Shown here piece after piece: positions 8,355 through 61,601 of a stretch of 64,000 bases of DNA. The first letter of the stretch is position 1. Every line of letters begins with the position of its first letter. The DNA comes from Marinobacter pelagius (GTDB taxonomy: Bacteria; Pseudomonadota; Gammaproteobacteria; Pseudomonadales; Oleiphilaceae). The position numbers and the translations under genes were made by a program. The stretch spans positions 1-64,000 of the forward strand of contig NZ_QNRO01000010.1 of the NCBI RefSeq assembly GCF_003315345.1, in the 5' to 3' direction. The notes beneath the pieces were generated by a model. It was not told the origin of the DNA and searched no databases. It saw nothing but the letters and a program-made list of their open reading frames with translations.

Positions 8355-8375
8355 GCAAGGGGATGATTTGAAAAA

Positions 8376-8581
8376 GGGGTCAGAAGAAAGCGTTCTTCAG
8401 ACCCCGGCATTACCCTCAAGCTCGATGCAAAACCCGGGGTCAGATGAAAGCCTTCATCTGACCCCTTTTTAATTCTGGCCAGGCTCACACTCCAGGGGTC
8501 TGAAGAACACCTTCTTCTGACCCATCTTCAGCCAAACTCCGATCATTCCCTGGGGTCTGAAGAACGCTTTCTTCTGACCCC
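8376..8581. repeat. Cluster of four GGGGTCAGA-family palindromes, copies 3-6
   Basis: Hairpins lie at 8376-8405, 8436-8465, 8495-8524 and 8552-8581 between typA and the iminopeptidase gene. The copy at 8436 has a perfect 13-bp stem followed by five T and looks like a working intrinsic terminator. The copies at 8495 and 8552 are part of a 57-bp tandem duplication, because both are followed by the same CATCTTCAGCCAAACTCC tail. The gene-free stretch 8355-8628 holds little else. Confidence 0.88.
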
Positions 8582-8628
8582 ATCTTCAGCCAAACTCCCA
8601 TAAAAGCCTTTACACCGGAGTTTCGCCC

Positions 8629-38129: not shown

Positions 38130-38317
38130 TCGTTCTCCTGAATACCTGTGCACATGGGCATCACTCCGGGACGCCCGGTAACCGGCCGCACATTGCTTTC
38201 AAGCAGCAGGTTGCGCATCCGGCGAGCTGATGGTTGGCCATTATGGACAATATTTCCCTTGGCCTCTACACTTGCAAACGTCACACAAATTGTGTGCTGA
38301 ACCGAATTTTACTCGCG

Positions 38318-38413
38318 TCTTGACGGGGTGCTGGCTTACCTGATTCCTGGGTGGCCGGCTGAGATTGCATCGCAGAACCCGCGACCTGATCCGGATAATA
38401 CCGGCGTAGGGAT
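38318..38413 (+). promoter_or_regulatory. TPP riboswitch (THI element) of thiC
   Basis: The conserved pieces of the thiamine pyrophosphate aptamer occur in order: ACGGGGTGCT (about 38323), GGCTGAGA, ACCC, ACCTGATCCGGATAATACCG and GCGTAGGGA ending at 38412. The last helix ends about 10 bases before the thiC ATG, so TPP binding could hide the ribosome site (translational control). Confidence 0.93.
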
Positions 38414-38416
38414 TAA

Positions 38417-40396
<1,980 letters not shown>

Positions 40397-40444
40397 TAGC
40401 TTGGTGCTCTGGTTCGCAGGACTGTGACTTTGCGGTTGGAGCCC

Positions 40445-40546
40445 GGTGGGTGGCCCGTTTCAGGACACGCTCCTGACGGCCCATCCCTGGGGCGCTTGGG
40501 CTCCGCCATCCCTGGCTCCGCACAGTCCTGAACCGGGCCACCCACC
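40445..40546 (+). repeat. Core element with matching inverted arms, copy A
   Basis: A 58-nt core (40467-40524, ending GGCTCCGCCATCC, then CTGGCTCCGCACA) is flanked by 22-bp arms at 40445-40466 and 40525-40546. The arms are inverted repeats of each other with one mismatch. The core matches those of copies B-E, but the arm sequence does not. It lies 48 bp after the thiC stop. No T-tract follows, so a simple terminator is unlikely. Confidence 0.85.
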
Positions 40547-40659
40547 GAGCTCTACTAGACTCACGGGAATTCGCTTTGAGAAACCGGAAATTTAGAAGCG
40601 ATACGGCCCTGTTAGCTATCTGGCAGGAATTCTACTTGCTCATTGCAGGGCGTCAGATC

Positions 40660-40772
40660 GGGTGAATCGGGAAGCGCCTCCCAAAACTGTGCGGAGCCAG
40701 GGATGGCGGAGCTCAAGCGTCACAGGGACGTGCCGAAGGAGCGTGTTTTGGGAGGCGCTTCCCGATTCGCCC
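40660..40772 (-). repeat. Core element with matching inverted arms, copy B (reverse orientation)
   Basis: The core (40688-40744, 57 nt) reads on the minus strand. The arms at 40660-40687 and 40745-40772 are 28 bp long with one mismatch; their inner ends are CCCAAAAC and GTTTTGGG. The element is inverted relative to copy A and 113 bp from it. The two copies fill most of the 487-bp gap between thiC and nudF, and I see nothing else recognisable there. Confidence 0.85.
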
Positions 40773-40883
40773 AGCTCCCGCAACTATCAGGCTGGGTCAG
40801 GAGCCGAAAGGCCAGATCGTGAGCTTGCAGGGAGCCCCAACAACCGGCTATCGTTCAAAGTCGATTACCAACCGGGGTGAACG

Positions 40884-46719: not shown

Positions 46720-46734
46720 GCAGTTTGGGAGCAT

Positions 46735-46844
46735 GCGCGTTTCAGGGCGGGCCTTCCGAAACACGCTCAAGCCCATCCCTGGGGCGCTTGGGCTCCGCCA
46801 TCCCTGGCTCCGCACAGTTTCGGAAGGCCCGCCCTGAAACACGC
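46735..46844 (+). repeat. Core element with matching inverted arms, copy C
   Basis: The core 46763-46816 (54 nt) closely matches copies A, B, D and E. The arms at 46735-46762 and 46817-46844 are 28 bp long with one mismatch, ending inside in TTCCGAAAC and GTTTCGGAA. Each arm is also partly self-complementary (GTTTC…GAAAC). It lies alone between gcvH and rlmI. Confidence 0.85.
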
Positions 46845-46911
46845 CCAGACACCAGTGCACGCTGCCAAGGACACCGATCTTAACTTTCCAATTTTCCTCA
46901 GGTGATTTTTG

Positions 46912-48108: not shown

Positions 48109-48120
48109 AGGCCTGAAAAC

Positions 48121-48267
48121 GGGGTCAGAAGAAGGCTTTCTTCAGACCCCAATCTAATCCCGGAGTCTTGACTCCCGGGGTCTGATGAAAGCTTTCATCT
48201 GACCCCTCTTTCACTCTGAATTCACCCCGTGCAACCCGGGGTCTGAAGAACGCCTTCTTCTGACCCC
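48121..48267. repeat. GGGGTCAGA-family palindromes, copies 7-9
   Basis: Hairpins lie at 48121-48150, 48177-48206 and 48238-48267, between the convergent ends of rlmI and the HAD hydrolase gene. The first is the mismatched type (…TTCAGACCCC); the second and third end …TCTGACCCC and are followed by CTCTTTCAC. They occupy most of the 174-bp gap and probably end both transcripts. Confidence 0.87.
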
Positions 48268-48282
48268 TCTTTCACCCCGAGC

Positions 48283-48939
48283 TCACCCCCGCAACGAAAT
48301 CACCGGCCACCCCGATTCCTTCGCCAGCGCCTCCAGCCTCGGGTCTGGATCCACCGCCACCGGGTTTTCCACCTGCTTCAGAAGCGGCACGTCATTATGG
48401 GAATCGCTATAGAACCAGGCCCCCTCCAGCGTGCGTTTGTGATGGTCAAGCCAGTCGTTCAGCCTGGTCACCTTGCCGTCCTGGAAGCTGGGGACGCCGG
48501 CGACCTCCCCGGTATACCGGCCATTCACCAGTTCCGGCTCGGTGGCGATCAGGTGCTCAACCTCTAACAACTCCGCAATCGGCTCGGTCACAAACCGGTT
48601 GGTGGCGGTGATGATCATCAGGGTGTGGCCCTGCTGGCGATGCCGGTCCAGCAGTTCCCGGGCCTTTTCCTGCATCATTGGGCGTACTTTTTTCTCAAGA
48701 AAGGCTTCGCGCCACGCCAGCAGTTCGTCCATGTCATGCCGGGCCAGCGGCTGCAGGGCGAAGCGGAGGTAGTGGAAGATGTCCAGCTCGCCGTTCAGGT
48801 ATTCTTCGTAGAACCGGTCGTTGGCTTTGCGGTATTCCTCGGCATCGACCAGACCTTCTTCCACCAGAAATTCGCCCCAGGCGTGGTCGCTGTCGCCAGC
48901 CAGCAGGGTGTTGTCCAGATCAAAAAGTGCGAGCGTCAA
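48283..48939 (-). CDS. HAD-IB family hydrolase (phosphoserine-phosphatase-like)
   Basis: The protein of about 218 residues has HAD motif I FDLDNTLLAGDSDHAWGEF, motif II in MIITATNRFVTEPIAELL, and motif III/IV in FYSDSHNDVPLLKQVENPVAVDPD. These fit the SerB-like HAD-IB group; the substrate is not known. The start is best taken as TTG at 48939, because GGAGG lies six bases upstream. A GTG at 48981 would add 14 residues with no family character. It is convergent with rlmI and divergent from rppH. Confidence 0.88.
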   Translation of the reverse strand: MTLALFDLDNTLLAGDSDHAWGEFLVEEGLVDAEEYRKANDRFYEEYLNGELDIFHYLRFALQPLARHDMDELLAWREAFLEKKVRPMMQEKARELLDRHRQQGHTLMIITATNRFVTEPIAELLEVEHLIATEPELVNGRYTGEVAGVPSFQDGKVTRLNDWLDHHKRTLEGAWFYSDSHNDVPLLKQVENPVAVDPDPRLEALAKESGWPVISLRG

Positions 48940-53309: not shown

Positions 53310-53321
53310 CGGAATTAAAAA

Positions 53322-53418
53322 GGGGTCAGATGAAAGCGTTCATCAGACCCCGGAGATTGCGCTAGAGCTCGGAGTTCAAGTCCATGCCGGGGTCAGATGA
53401 AAGCCTTCATCTGACCCC
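53322..53418. repeat. GGGGTCAGA-family palindrome doublet, copies 10-11
   Basis: Hairpins at 53322-53351 (preceded by five A; 3' half ends CATCAGACCCC) and 53389-53418 (perfect stem) fill the gap between the convergent patatin-like and hslU genes. The layout repeats that of the doublets at 1102, 8376 and 48121. Confidence 0.87.
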
Positions 53419-53427
53419 ATGTTCCCG

Positions 53428-54759
53428 TCAGAGAATATACCGGCTCAGGTCCTCATCCTCGGACAACTCCCCAAGCTTCTCGTCCACATACTCCGCGGTC
53501 ACCTCGAAGCTCTCGGTCACCGCATCACCAGCATCGTAAGACAGGCTCTCCAGCAACCGTTCCAGCACCGTGTGCAGGCGACGGGCACCAATATTCTCGG
53601 TAGTCTCGTTGACCTTCCAGGCCACCTCCGCAATCCGGGCAATGGCATCCTCACCGAAGGTCAGTTTGACCCCTTCGGTCGCCATCAGCGCTTCATACTG
53701 CTGAACCAGTGACGCATCCGGCTCGGTCAGGATGCGCTTGAAGTCGTCCGGCGTCAGGGCCTGCAGCTCAACCCGGATCGGCAGGCGACCCTGCAATTCC
53801 GGAATCAGGTCGGACGGCTTGGACAGGTGGAACGCGCCGGAAGCGATGAACAGGATGTGGTCGGTGCGCACCGAGCCATACTTGGTGCTCACGGTGCTGC
53901 CCTCGATCAGCGGCAGCAGGTCCCGCTGTACGCCTTCCCGGGAAACGTCGGAGGAGGTGTTTTCCGAGCGCTTGGCCACCTTGTCGATCTCATCGAGAAA
54001 CACGATGCCATTCTGCTCCACCGCCTGAATGGCCTTCTGCTTGATTTCTTCCTCGTTGACCAGTTTGGCCGCTTCCTCGTCCTTTGCCTGCTTGAGCGCG
54101 TCGGCCACTCGCATCTTCCGGGTCTTGCGCTTGTCGGAAGACAGGTTGGAGAACATGCTCTGCAGCTGGTTGGTCATCTCTTCCATGCCCGGGGGCGCCA
54201 TGATCTCCACGCCGGCACCGGCGCTGCGCAGATCGATCTCGATTTCCTTGTCATCGAGTTCACCCTCCCGCAGCTTCTTGCGGAACAGCTGGCGGGTGGA
54301 GGAGTCATTGCTGACCCGCTGGCTTTCTTCGTTGAAGTCACGGGGCGGCGGCAGCAGGGCGTCCAGAATCCGTTCCTCGGCGGCATCCAGGGCACGGCTT
54401 TCGTGGCGCTTCATTTCCTTCTCGCGCAACATTTTCACTGCCATGTCCGCCAGATCGCGGACGATGGACTCCACATCCCGTCCTACATAGCCCACTTCGG
54501 TGAACTTGGTGGCTTCCACCTTCAGGAAAGGGGCATCGGCCAGCTTGGCCAGGCGACGGGCAATTTCGGTCTTGCCGACACCGGTGGGGCCGATCATCAG
54601 GATGTTCTTGGGGGTAATCTCGTCCCGCAGGCTGCTATCCAGCTGCATCCGGCGCCAGCGGTTCCGCAGCGCGATGGCCACCGCGCGTTTGGCTTCTTCC
54701 TGGCCCACGATGTGTTTGTTGAGTTCGTGGACAATCTCTCGGGGAGTCATTGCAGACAT
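53428..54759 (-). CDS. hslU: ATP-dependent protease ATPase subunit HslU
   Basis: This AAA+ unfoldase partners with HslV. The 443-residue protein has Walker A GPTGVGKT (57-64), Walker B in [10 protein letters not shown], the I-domain insertion, and a C-terminal tail ending in the hydrophobic LSRYIL that docks into HslV. GGAGCG lies ahead of the ATG. It follows hslV by 12 bp on the same strand. Confidence 0.98.
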
Positions 54760-55302: not shown

Positions 55303-55388
55303 TGGGGCTCCAATTGCCTGTTTGAAATTGGTATTCCGAAGTTATGGAGGCTTATGGTGGGAATTCAAGAGGTTTGGCTCTGGGAGTA

Positions 55389-55504
55389 GGTCGGGTTTGG
55401 AGACCGTTCTCCAAAACACGCTCCTTGCGGCACGTCCCTGTGACGCTTGGGCTCCGCCATCCATGGCTCCGCACAGTTTTGGAGAACGGTCTCCAAACCC
55501 GACC
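55389..55504 (+). repeat. Core element with matching inverted arms, copy D (perfect arms)
   Basis: A 58-nt core (55418-55475) sits between perfect 29-bp inverted arms at 55389-55417 and 55476-55504. Each arm is itself a small palindrome (TTTGGAGA at 55396-55403, TCTCCAAA at 55408-55415). The core ends GGCTCCGCCATCC, then ATGGCTCCGCACA. It is an intergenic copy upstream of hslV. Confidence 0.88.
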
Positions 55505-55555
55505 CAAAACCTGGGAGTTGAACCTGTCCGAGTATGCGAAACTGCTGTATTTCGA

Positions 55556-55664
55556 GCGCCTTTCGGGGATGTGATTCCGAAACCCTGCGGAGCCATGGAT
55601 GGCGGAGCGGAGCGTACAGGGACGTATCCACAGCGTGTTTCGGAATCACATCCCCGAAAGGTGC
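55556..55664 (-). repeat. Core element with matching inverted arms, copy E (reverse orientation)
   Basis: The core (55584-55636, 53 nt) reads on the minus strand. The 28-bp arms at 55556-55583 and 55637-55664 have one mismatch and inner ends TTCCGAAAC and GTTTCGGAA. It is inverted relative to copy D and 51 bp away. Copies D and E fill most of the 380-bp gap between hslV and the SPOR gene. Confidence 0.86.
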
Positions 55665-55682
55665 TTCCACCAAGAGAAGAGG

Positions 55683-61343: not shown

Positions 61344-61601
61344 TCGGGACTCCATTTCAGGTGATGTTGTGGTTTTCACTTAGGGATCGAACCCGGCAGC
61401 CTGGTGGTATTGTGGCTGCGAGGCAGGGAATGAAGCGCCCGTAAGGCTTGCCTGTCACAGAGATTGCAAGTATTATTCGCGGTCTGTTTTCGGCAGGGCA
61501 TGATTGTGCCTCGCCTTTCACTTTGATTCAAACATGCGGTGCCAGGCGCCAGGGATTGATTCCCCGTGACCGGGTAGCGGCATGACCGAAAGAGGTTCGC
61601 C

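Follow-up and report, generated by a model that had tools for sequence, protein, structure and literature searches.

The window analysed here, a stretch of 64,000 nt from Marinobacter pelagius, carries between thiC and a nudF-like gene two copies of a repeat in opposite orientation, and the question that this locus raises is what kind of element the repeat is and whether its paired copies belong together. An earlier note on this DNA had compared the layout to that of BIMEs or REPINs, with pairs that move, or are kept, as units. The five copies it had named, A to E, are all found at their positions, with the core strands A +, B -, C +, D + and E -; copy C is indeed unpaired, and the gaps of 113 bp (A/B) and 51 bp (D/E) are about right when counted between the stem spans, which lie at approximately 40445-40552 (A), 40660-40772 (B), 46735-46842 (C), 55389-55505 (D) and 55556-55664 (E). 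What had been overlooked is the main point: the unit has a two-hairpin fold of the TwoAYGGAY type that resembles a CsrA site.

Repeat copies in the window

We describe the copies on the strand that carries their ANGGA loops; this is the strand of our 39-copy alignment A1, opposite to the "core +" of the earlier note, and A1 is the basis of the covariance model R1 used throughout. TwoAYGGAY-like copy A (40435-40556, minus strand, 117.3 bits with R1) lies between thiC (+) and copy B, and from the sequence and A1 both its loops read AGGGAT, that of hairpin 2 at 40508-40513 and that of hairpin 1 at 40483-40488, both on the minus strand. Copy B, also TwoAYGGAY-like (40656-40776, plus strand, 132.2 bits), is upstream of the nudF-like gene (+). 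It folds into a 28-bp stem in which a 5' arm at 40660-40687 pairs with a 3' arm at 40745-40772; its hairpin-2 loop is AGGGAT at 40699-40704, with A44, G46, G47 and A48 invariant in A1, and its hairpin-1 loop is AGGGAC at 40724-40729, with A69, G71, G72 and A73 invariant. The single copy C (46731-46848, minus strand, 122.1 bits) sits between gcvH and an RlmI-like gene. Copy D (55386-55507, minus strand, 129.2 bits, fold z -10.7) sits between hslV and a SPOR-domain gene; its partner E (55552-55668, plus strand, 110.7 bits, fold z -8.5) has the hairpin-2 loop ATGGAT at 55595-55600 and the hairpin-1 loop AGGGAC at 55618-55623, again from the sequence and A1.

The window holds further structured elements: a TPP riboswitch ahead of thiC (38314-38429, 62 bits), an L31 ribosomal protein leader (61533-61596) that scores 33.3 bits against a threshold of 33.2, and a second repeat family of GGGGTCAGATGAARGCNTTCATCTGACCCC-type palindromes at 1097-1212, 8371-8603, 48116-48289 and 53317-53440. 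There are 11 copies of these palindromes in the window, in clusters of two to four spaced by about 56-79 nt; AGAAG and AGATG forms of their stems alternate, and the change is compensated.

Architecture of the repeat unit

The unit is about 120 nt long and consists of a conserved core on a stem of about 28 bp. Stems run from 25 to 35 pairs, with 28 or 29 pairs in 47 of 89 copies and 4 pairs in one truncated copy (the 89-copy set omits C9:62345, and the comparison of cores given below also omits C26:22329). The arm sequences vary between copies, with a mean identity of 0.45 over positions 6-28, and standard pairs fill 98.5% of the stem cells of the 39-copy alignment. RNAalifold places 39 consensus pairs, 33 of which have changes on both sides; pairing cells amount to 98.8% versus 73.1% in shuffles, and the covariation score is 0.668 versus 0.156, a value reached by 0 of 500 shuffles. 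All five covariation measures lie above each of the 500 shuffles and above all slid versions of the alignment.

On the ANGGA strand, the core forms two hairpins, hairpin 2 and hairpin 1. At both places an A-N-GGA hexaloop with at least two closing pairs is present in 162 of 172 copies (89 from the own genome and 83 from relatives' loci), and all four letters occur at the middle base N; CsrA sites, too, have a free middle base between otherwise fixed loop bases. The ten other copies have an insertion in hairpin 1 (four), a lost loop base (two) or a mismatch beside the loop (four). Hairpin 2 contains opposed purines, GGA/GGA in 93 and UGA/GAA in 22 of the 162 copies. Folding of single sequences was strongly non-random in the nine tried; fold energy expresses no strand preference (z -5.9 for copy A and -6.7 for its other strand; -8.0 and -8.8 for copy B), and for copy C the two hairpins are missing from the minimum-energy fold.

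Other hairpin units were also seen inside hairpin 1 or hairpin 2, several of them directly after the loop bases ANGG: at L119 9722-9927, L120 9727-9998, L123 3652-3854, L142 822-1023, L167 6477-6648 and G000:C26:22329. Those in L119, L120 and L167 have an ANGGAC hairpin of their own on different stems.

Copy number and the order of close pairs

A pattern derived from the core, with up to three mismatches, occurs at 41 places in the own genome, and the R1 search finds at least 90 copies: 88 score above 70 bits, and of the other two one is truncated and one partial. This count omits reverse-strand echoes and three matches below 36 bits. The total is a lower bound because 150 of 1368 first-look candidates were scored. 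R1 maps with up to 150 candidates scored in each gave at least 82 copies in genome G016, at least 84 in G035, at least 12 in G041 and at least 8 in G039, which belongs to another family. With up to 62 candidates scored per genome, copies are present in all 36 other genomes of the genus that were searched, from 3 to at least 62 in each, and of 21 genomes from other genera of the order, 4 carry copies too; since a genome of the genus can have as few as 3, a high copy number is not required.

The genome-wide map of orientation and spacing called for by the earlier note shows forward-reverse pairs far beyond chance: among the copies scored in the own genome there are 14 neighbours with a gap below 300 nt, where about 0.8 would be expected if 90 copies were placed at random, and all 14 have the core order +/-, for which the chance of 14 of 14 in one of the four orders is 4e-9. 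The random mix of orientations that would have told against that note is thus not what is found among close pairs. The order at gaps below 300 nt is also +/- in 6 of 6 cases in G016, 9 of 9 in G035 and 1 of 1 in G039; G041 has no close pair among its at least 12 copies. Over the own genome, G016 and G035 together this makes 29 of 29, and the gaps of the inverted close pairs range from 25 to 162 nt. In the same three genomes the order is +/- in 7 of 8 neighbours 300-1000 nt apart, and from 1 kb upward all four orders are present, mixed. On the RNA-like strand, then, close copies almost always face away from one another; the sole exception among close pairs is L140 at the thiC-nudF site, whose second core is inverted.

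Position relative to genes

With genes called by a simple ORF scorer of our own, none of 89 copies lies inside a gene, and 7 overlap a called gene end by 2-88 nt. The 60 single copies with both neighbours known lie at 38 same-strand, 11 convergent and 11 divergent junctions, and of the 38 at same-strand junctions 21 are in sense. We rejected a role as 3'UTR element or terminator, as there is no preference for strand or junction type; the mix of strands and junctions among singles is unlike a cis-acting mRNA element or a terminator. As for a promoter of their own, the flank profile of the copies gave weak motifs only, more pronounced among pair members than among singles.

Probable selection on the ANGGA strand

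In the 24 inner arm pairs, read on the ANGGA strand and skipping copies with a detected stem below 16 pairs, G.U outnumbers A.C by 98 to 15 (p 4e-16), with 38 versus 5 in the own genome and 60 versus 10 in relatives; the 37 own copies with the exact hairpin-2 string have 16 G.U and 2 A.C. G.U on one strand is A.C on the other, so that equal numbers would be expected of a palindrome that acted purely as double-stranded DNA, and the excess of G.U points to selection on the single ANGGA strand. R1 could itself favour G.U, yet most of its matches lie far above threshold. The counts are most simply explained by selection on the folded ANGGA strand, with a possible contribution from strand-biased mutation. 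The selected form is likelier to be RNA than folded single-stranded DNA, although G.T is tolerated in folded single-stranded DNA too, which counts against reading the G.U excess as a sign of RNA.

Orthologous sites and core inversion

Of eighty loci that span the A-E region wholly or in part, 58 are titled Marinobacter; R1 gave 98 matches in relatives' loci, and 83 were used once 13 echoes on the reverse strand and 2 copies truncated at contig ends had been set aside. Among 38 regions syntenic to thiC-nudF, 12 contain two copies, arranged -/+ on the RNA strand (core +/-) in 11 and -/- in one, so that pairs are kept as forward-reverse pairs at a site shared by relatives. The other regions have a single copy on the plus strand (6) or on the minus strand (2) or none by R1 (18), with core-less or truncated remnants in some of the last, for example L157 and L134. 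L125, compared with L120 and L192, is without copy A including both arms. Of 58 hslV-SPOR regions, only that of the window has the pair; R1 finds one copy in 12 others and no copy in 45. Apparently core-less stems left as short hairpins can be seen in L124 (gcvH-RlmI), L118 (hslV-SPOR) and L157 (thiC-nudF).

Comparison of these sites reveals that the core can be inverted within its arms. L139 and L140 have opposite cores and differ at 0 of 48 arm bases, and the same holds in nearly the same arms for L192 and L129 (3 bases differ) and for L118 and L119 (4 differ). In the interval of copy C, five relatives have the opposite core direction, and in two of them, L119 and L129, the opposite core sits in arms that are nearly those of a minus-strand relative. 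Single cores flip in this way, yet pair order is constant in 41 of 42 cases (the window's A/B pair is counted twice here, and further overlaps are possible), which suggests that the forward-reverse order in pairs matters.

The arms have their own history. The sites of copies A to D and a fifth one, downstream of the RlmI-like gene, were compared over edges with no more than 20 arm differences; there, orthologous arms differ by 202 double Watson-Crick changes versus 78 one-sided pair changes, and 104 of the 202 are transversions. That double transversions are so frequent suggests, besides selection, copying of DNA from one arm to the other. One may then ask whether the repeats are passive DNA palindromes, cruciforms or bidirectional terminators whose symmetry is maintained by template switching from arm to arm, for which strand and RNA would be irrelevant. 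The double changes, half of them transversions, fit this view, as do the narrow range of stem lengths and the inversion of cores in (nearly) unchanged arms; but the G.U excess and the conserved ANGGA loops require a strand, tandem, convergent and divergent sites are used alike, unlike terminators, and the strand asymmetry argues against palindromes as the whole story. We consider this explanation highly improbable.

Mobility and relation to REPINs

Apparently recent copies were examined in G051, a genome of another family, and they are singles. This genome has 41 matches, from which 11 loci were sampled and 10 aligned: nine have near-identical arms and flanks that look unrelated, and the tenth, L235, has by eye a core inverted relative to the element ends. 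Seven of the nine start with TACTAG and eight end with GGTAGTA. As far as these loci tell, the mobile unit in G051 seems to be the single element with its arms. The G051 loci (L235-L263) have the same fold and sharp ends, and there are 11 Y1_Tnp matches in the genome. We also considered whether arms are made anew from target DNA at insertion, and discarded the idea since arms are shared among the G051 copies and remain homologous in many orthologous copies; the arms rather seem to travel with the element and to drift by paired changes. No two copies of the own genome share their arms fully (the best share 24 of 28), so the spread there looks old. A composite transposon, suggested by two pairs with the same 852-nt gap, was dismissed as well: the intervening DNA consists of host genes, by translation trpC-like and enoyl-CoA hydratase-like, and a blastn comparison with the trpC insert as query against the other two listed no mutual similarity.

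Pair members are often of different subtypes, with a core identity of 0.77 within a pair versus 0.70 between forward and reverse copies across pairs, and there is no evidence of pairs moving together. Of the proposal that pairs move or are kept as units, the keeping stands, as order at the orthologous site, and the joint movement is unsupported. The likeness to BIMEs and REPINs divides in the same manner: the layout agrees, and membership fails or is doubtful on unit length, single copies and RAYT. In common are intergenic position, many copies, inversion of close copies and similar gap sizes. If the repeats were canonical REPINs or BIMEs, in which a RAYT transposase mobilises inverted REP pairs, then inverted doublets should be over-represented, and they are (29 of 29 close pairs; 14 versus about 0.8); the stronger flank motifs of pair members would fit too. 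However, doublets should also be the main form and the more conserved one, while the copies scored in the own genome comprise 62 singles and 14 pairs, and pair members (core identity 0.714) are not clearly more conserved than singles (0.698). REPs are described in the text of PMC3733652 as short, 20-40 bp, with a GTAG or CGTC tag; the repeats are units of about 120 nt whose long stems vary while their loops are conserved, and the flank profile of the own copies contains neither tag, although the G051 copies do mostly end with GGTAGTA. Nor do RAYT genes track copy number in the 37 genus genomes searched with PF01797 (Y1_Tnp): it matches nothing in nine with at least 56 copies (G001, G004, G007, G008, G018, G020, G021, G022 and G023), and G003 has 22 matches and at least 7 copies. 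Membership among canonical REPINs or BIMEs is accordingly very doubtful.

A selfish element that acts as single-stranded DNA deserves more weight, and is nonetheless on the whole unlikely. Here the loops and the strand bias would reflect recognition of a folded single-stranded intermediate by some transposase, and the likeness to CsrA sites would be accidental. The near-identical G051 copies, with arms, sharp ends and unrelated flanks, speak for this, as do the lack of a gene-strand bias and the other hairpin units inserted in hairpin 1 or 2. Against it stand the lack of an associated transposase in the one family searched (PF01797), the lack of a replichore-like strand contrast among 66 singles of G035 (p 0.91), and the free middle N amid fixed loop bases, which is what a CsrA site predicts.

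Likeness to TwoAYGGAY and CsrA-binding RNAs

An Rfam scan of the window copies gave no family at its gathering score. At a relaxed threshold, the whole length of RF01731 (TwoAYGGAY) aligned to copy A with 26.2 bits (E 0.059; gathering score 43), and the match is shown with clan CL00106, which we take to be the Csr/Rsm clan. For copy B, RF01731 was not listed in the relaxed scan and a microRNA-precursor model came first with 28.2 bits; in 15 other own loci, RF01731 appeared in two (35.8 and 35.1 bits) and a microRNA model had the highest score, 40.3. As such precursor models score as high or higher, long stems alone attract weak matches. Searched against the own genome, RF01731 yields 12 matches at E<=0.01, the best with 38.8 bits and thus none over the gathering score. 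Of 58 genomes, 31 have matches at E<=0.01, and in 6 (five of the genus plus G055) a match exceeds the gathering score; 14 control genomes have none. Two of the places over the cut-off, G004:C30:177482 and G023:C11:1649343, are R1 matches.

The own genome has one CsrA gene match. Small RNAs of the RsmY/RsmZ/CsrB type, which sequester CsrA, share with the repeats multiple GGA-loop hairpins per RNA; they are, however, encoded by one to few genes with their own promoters, whereas the repeats occur in about 90 copies in either direction. Models for RsmZ (RF00166) and RsmY (RF00195) find nothing over cut-off in the 37 genus genomes, with weak sub-threshold matches only; Rsm RNAs of a kind outside these models may exist there.

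Weinberg et al. (2010, PMC2864571) reported TwoAYGGAY, with no function known for it, from human gut, gamma-Proteobacteria and Clostridiales, and considered it a probable RNA that is unlikely to be cis-regulatory; the later text of PMC4333381 gives tandem GA for it and a prediction that it binds CsrA. The repeats have in common with it a weakly conserved or variable outer stem, two hairpins with A-Y/N-GGA-Y loops and opposed GA purines in one hairpin stem, and differ in that the window copies score below the RF01731 gathering cut-off. A dispersed repeat of up to about 90 copies, forward-reverse pairs or invertible cores are not mentioned in the open texts of this literature, supplements aside. 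The most fitting description of the repeats is a variant of the TwoAYGGAY kind with high copy number, paired arrangement and invertible cores, one that possibly binds CsrA.

A model for the repeats

Sequence comparison provides the copy number, the covarying structure, the conserved loops and the ANGGA-strand pairing; the intergenic sites, the absence of a fixed gene-relative direction and the forward-reverse rule of close pairs; and the core inversions and descent at shared sites. On this ground we lean, with some reserve, towards the reading that the repeats are dispersed elements of the TwoAYGGAY kind that have spread as a mobile family and act as RNA. A stem of about 28 bp and of free sequence would present two short ANGGA-loop hairpins, and the two loops of one copy are predicted to clamp one CsrA/RsmA dimer, so that transcripts running through a copy would bind or sequester the protein. 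In a forward-reverse pair, transcription of either strand would yield one copy in the sense that binds, and the order may be kept for that. Our reserve has to do with the scores of the own-genome and window copies, which are below the RF01731 gathering cut-off, and with fold energies that do not single out the ANGGA strand, both of which count against the TwoAYGGAY/CsrA reading; 21 of 38 singles in sense and core flips at orthologous sites count against a cis-acting RNA, which should resist flips.

We further speculate, and regard it as rather unlikely in this full form, that the mobile repeat has become a genome-wide CsrA sponge, a predicted role in which pairs are maintained to provide sites on either strand and core inversion serves as a local switch. 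Some 90 dispersed two-site RNAs inside other transcripts would then tie CsrA activity to intergenic transcription, in a genus without any match over threshold to the models for RsmY and RsmZ. Core inversion would decide locally which strand binds.

A fold of the TwoAYGGAY kind is here an abundant dispersed repeat, with at least 82 to 90 copies in the three genomes mapped, that obeys a strict pairing rule and has invertible cores. Should the copies bind CsrA, this global regulator would receive many sites from a mobile repeat; should they not, the CsrA reading of TwoAYGGAY itself needs revision.
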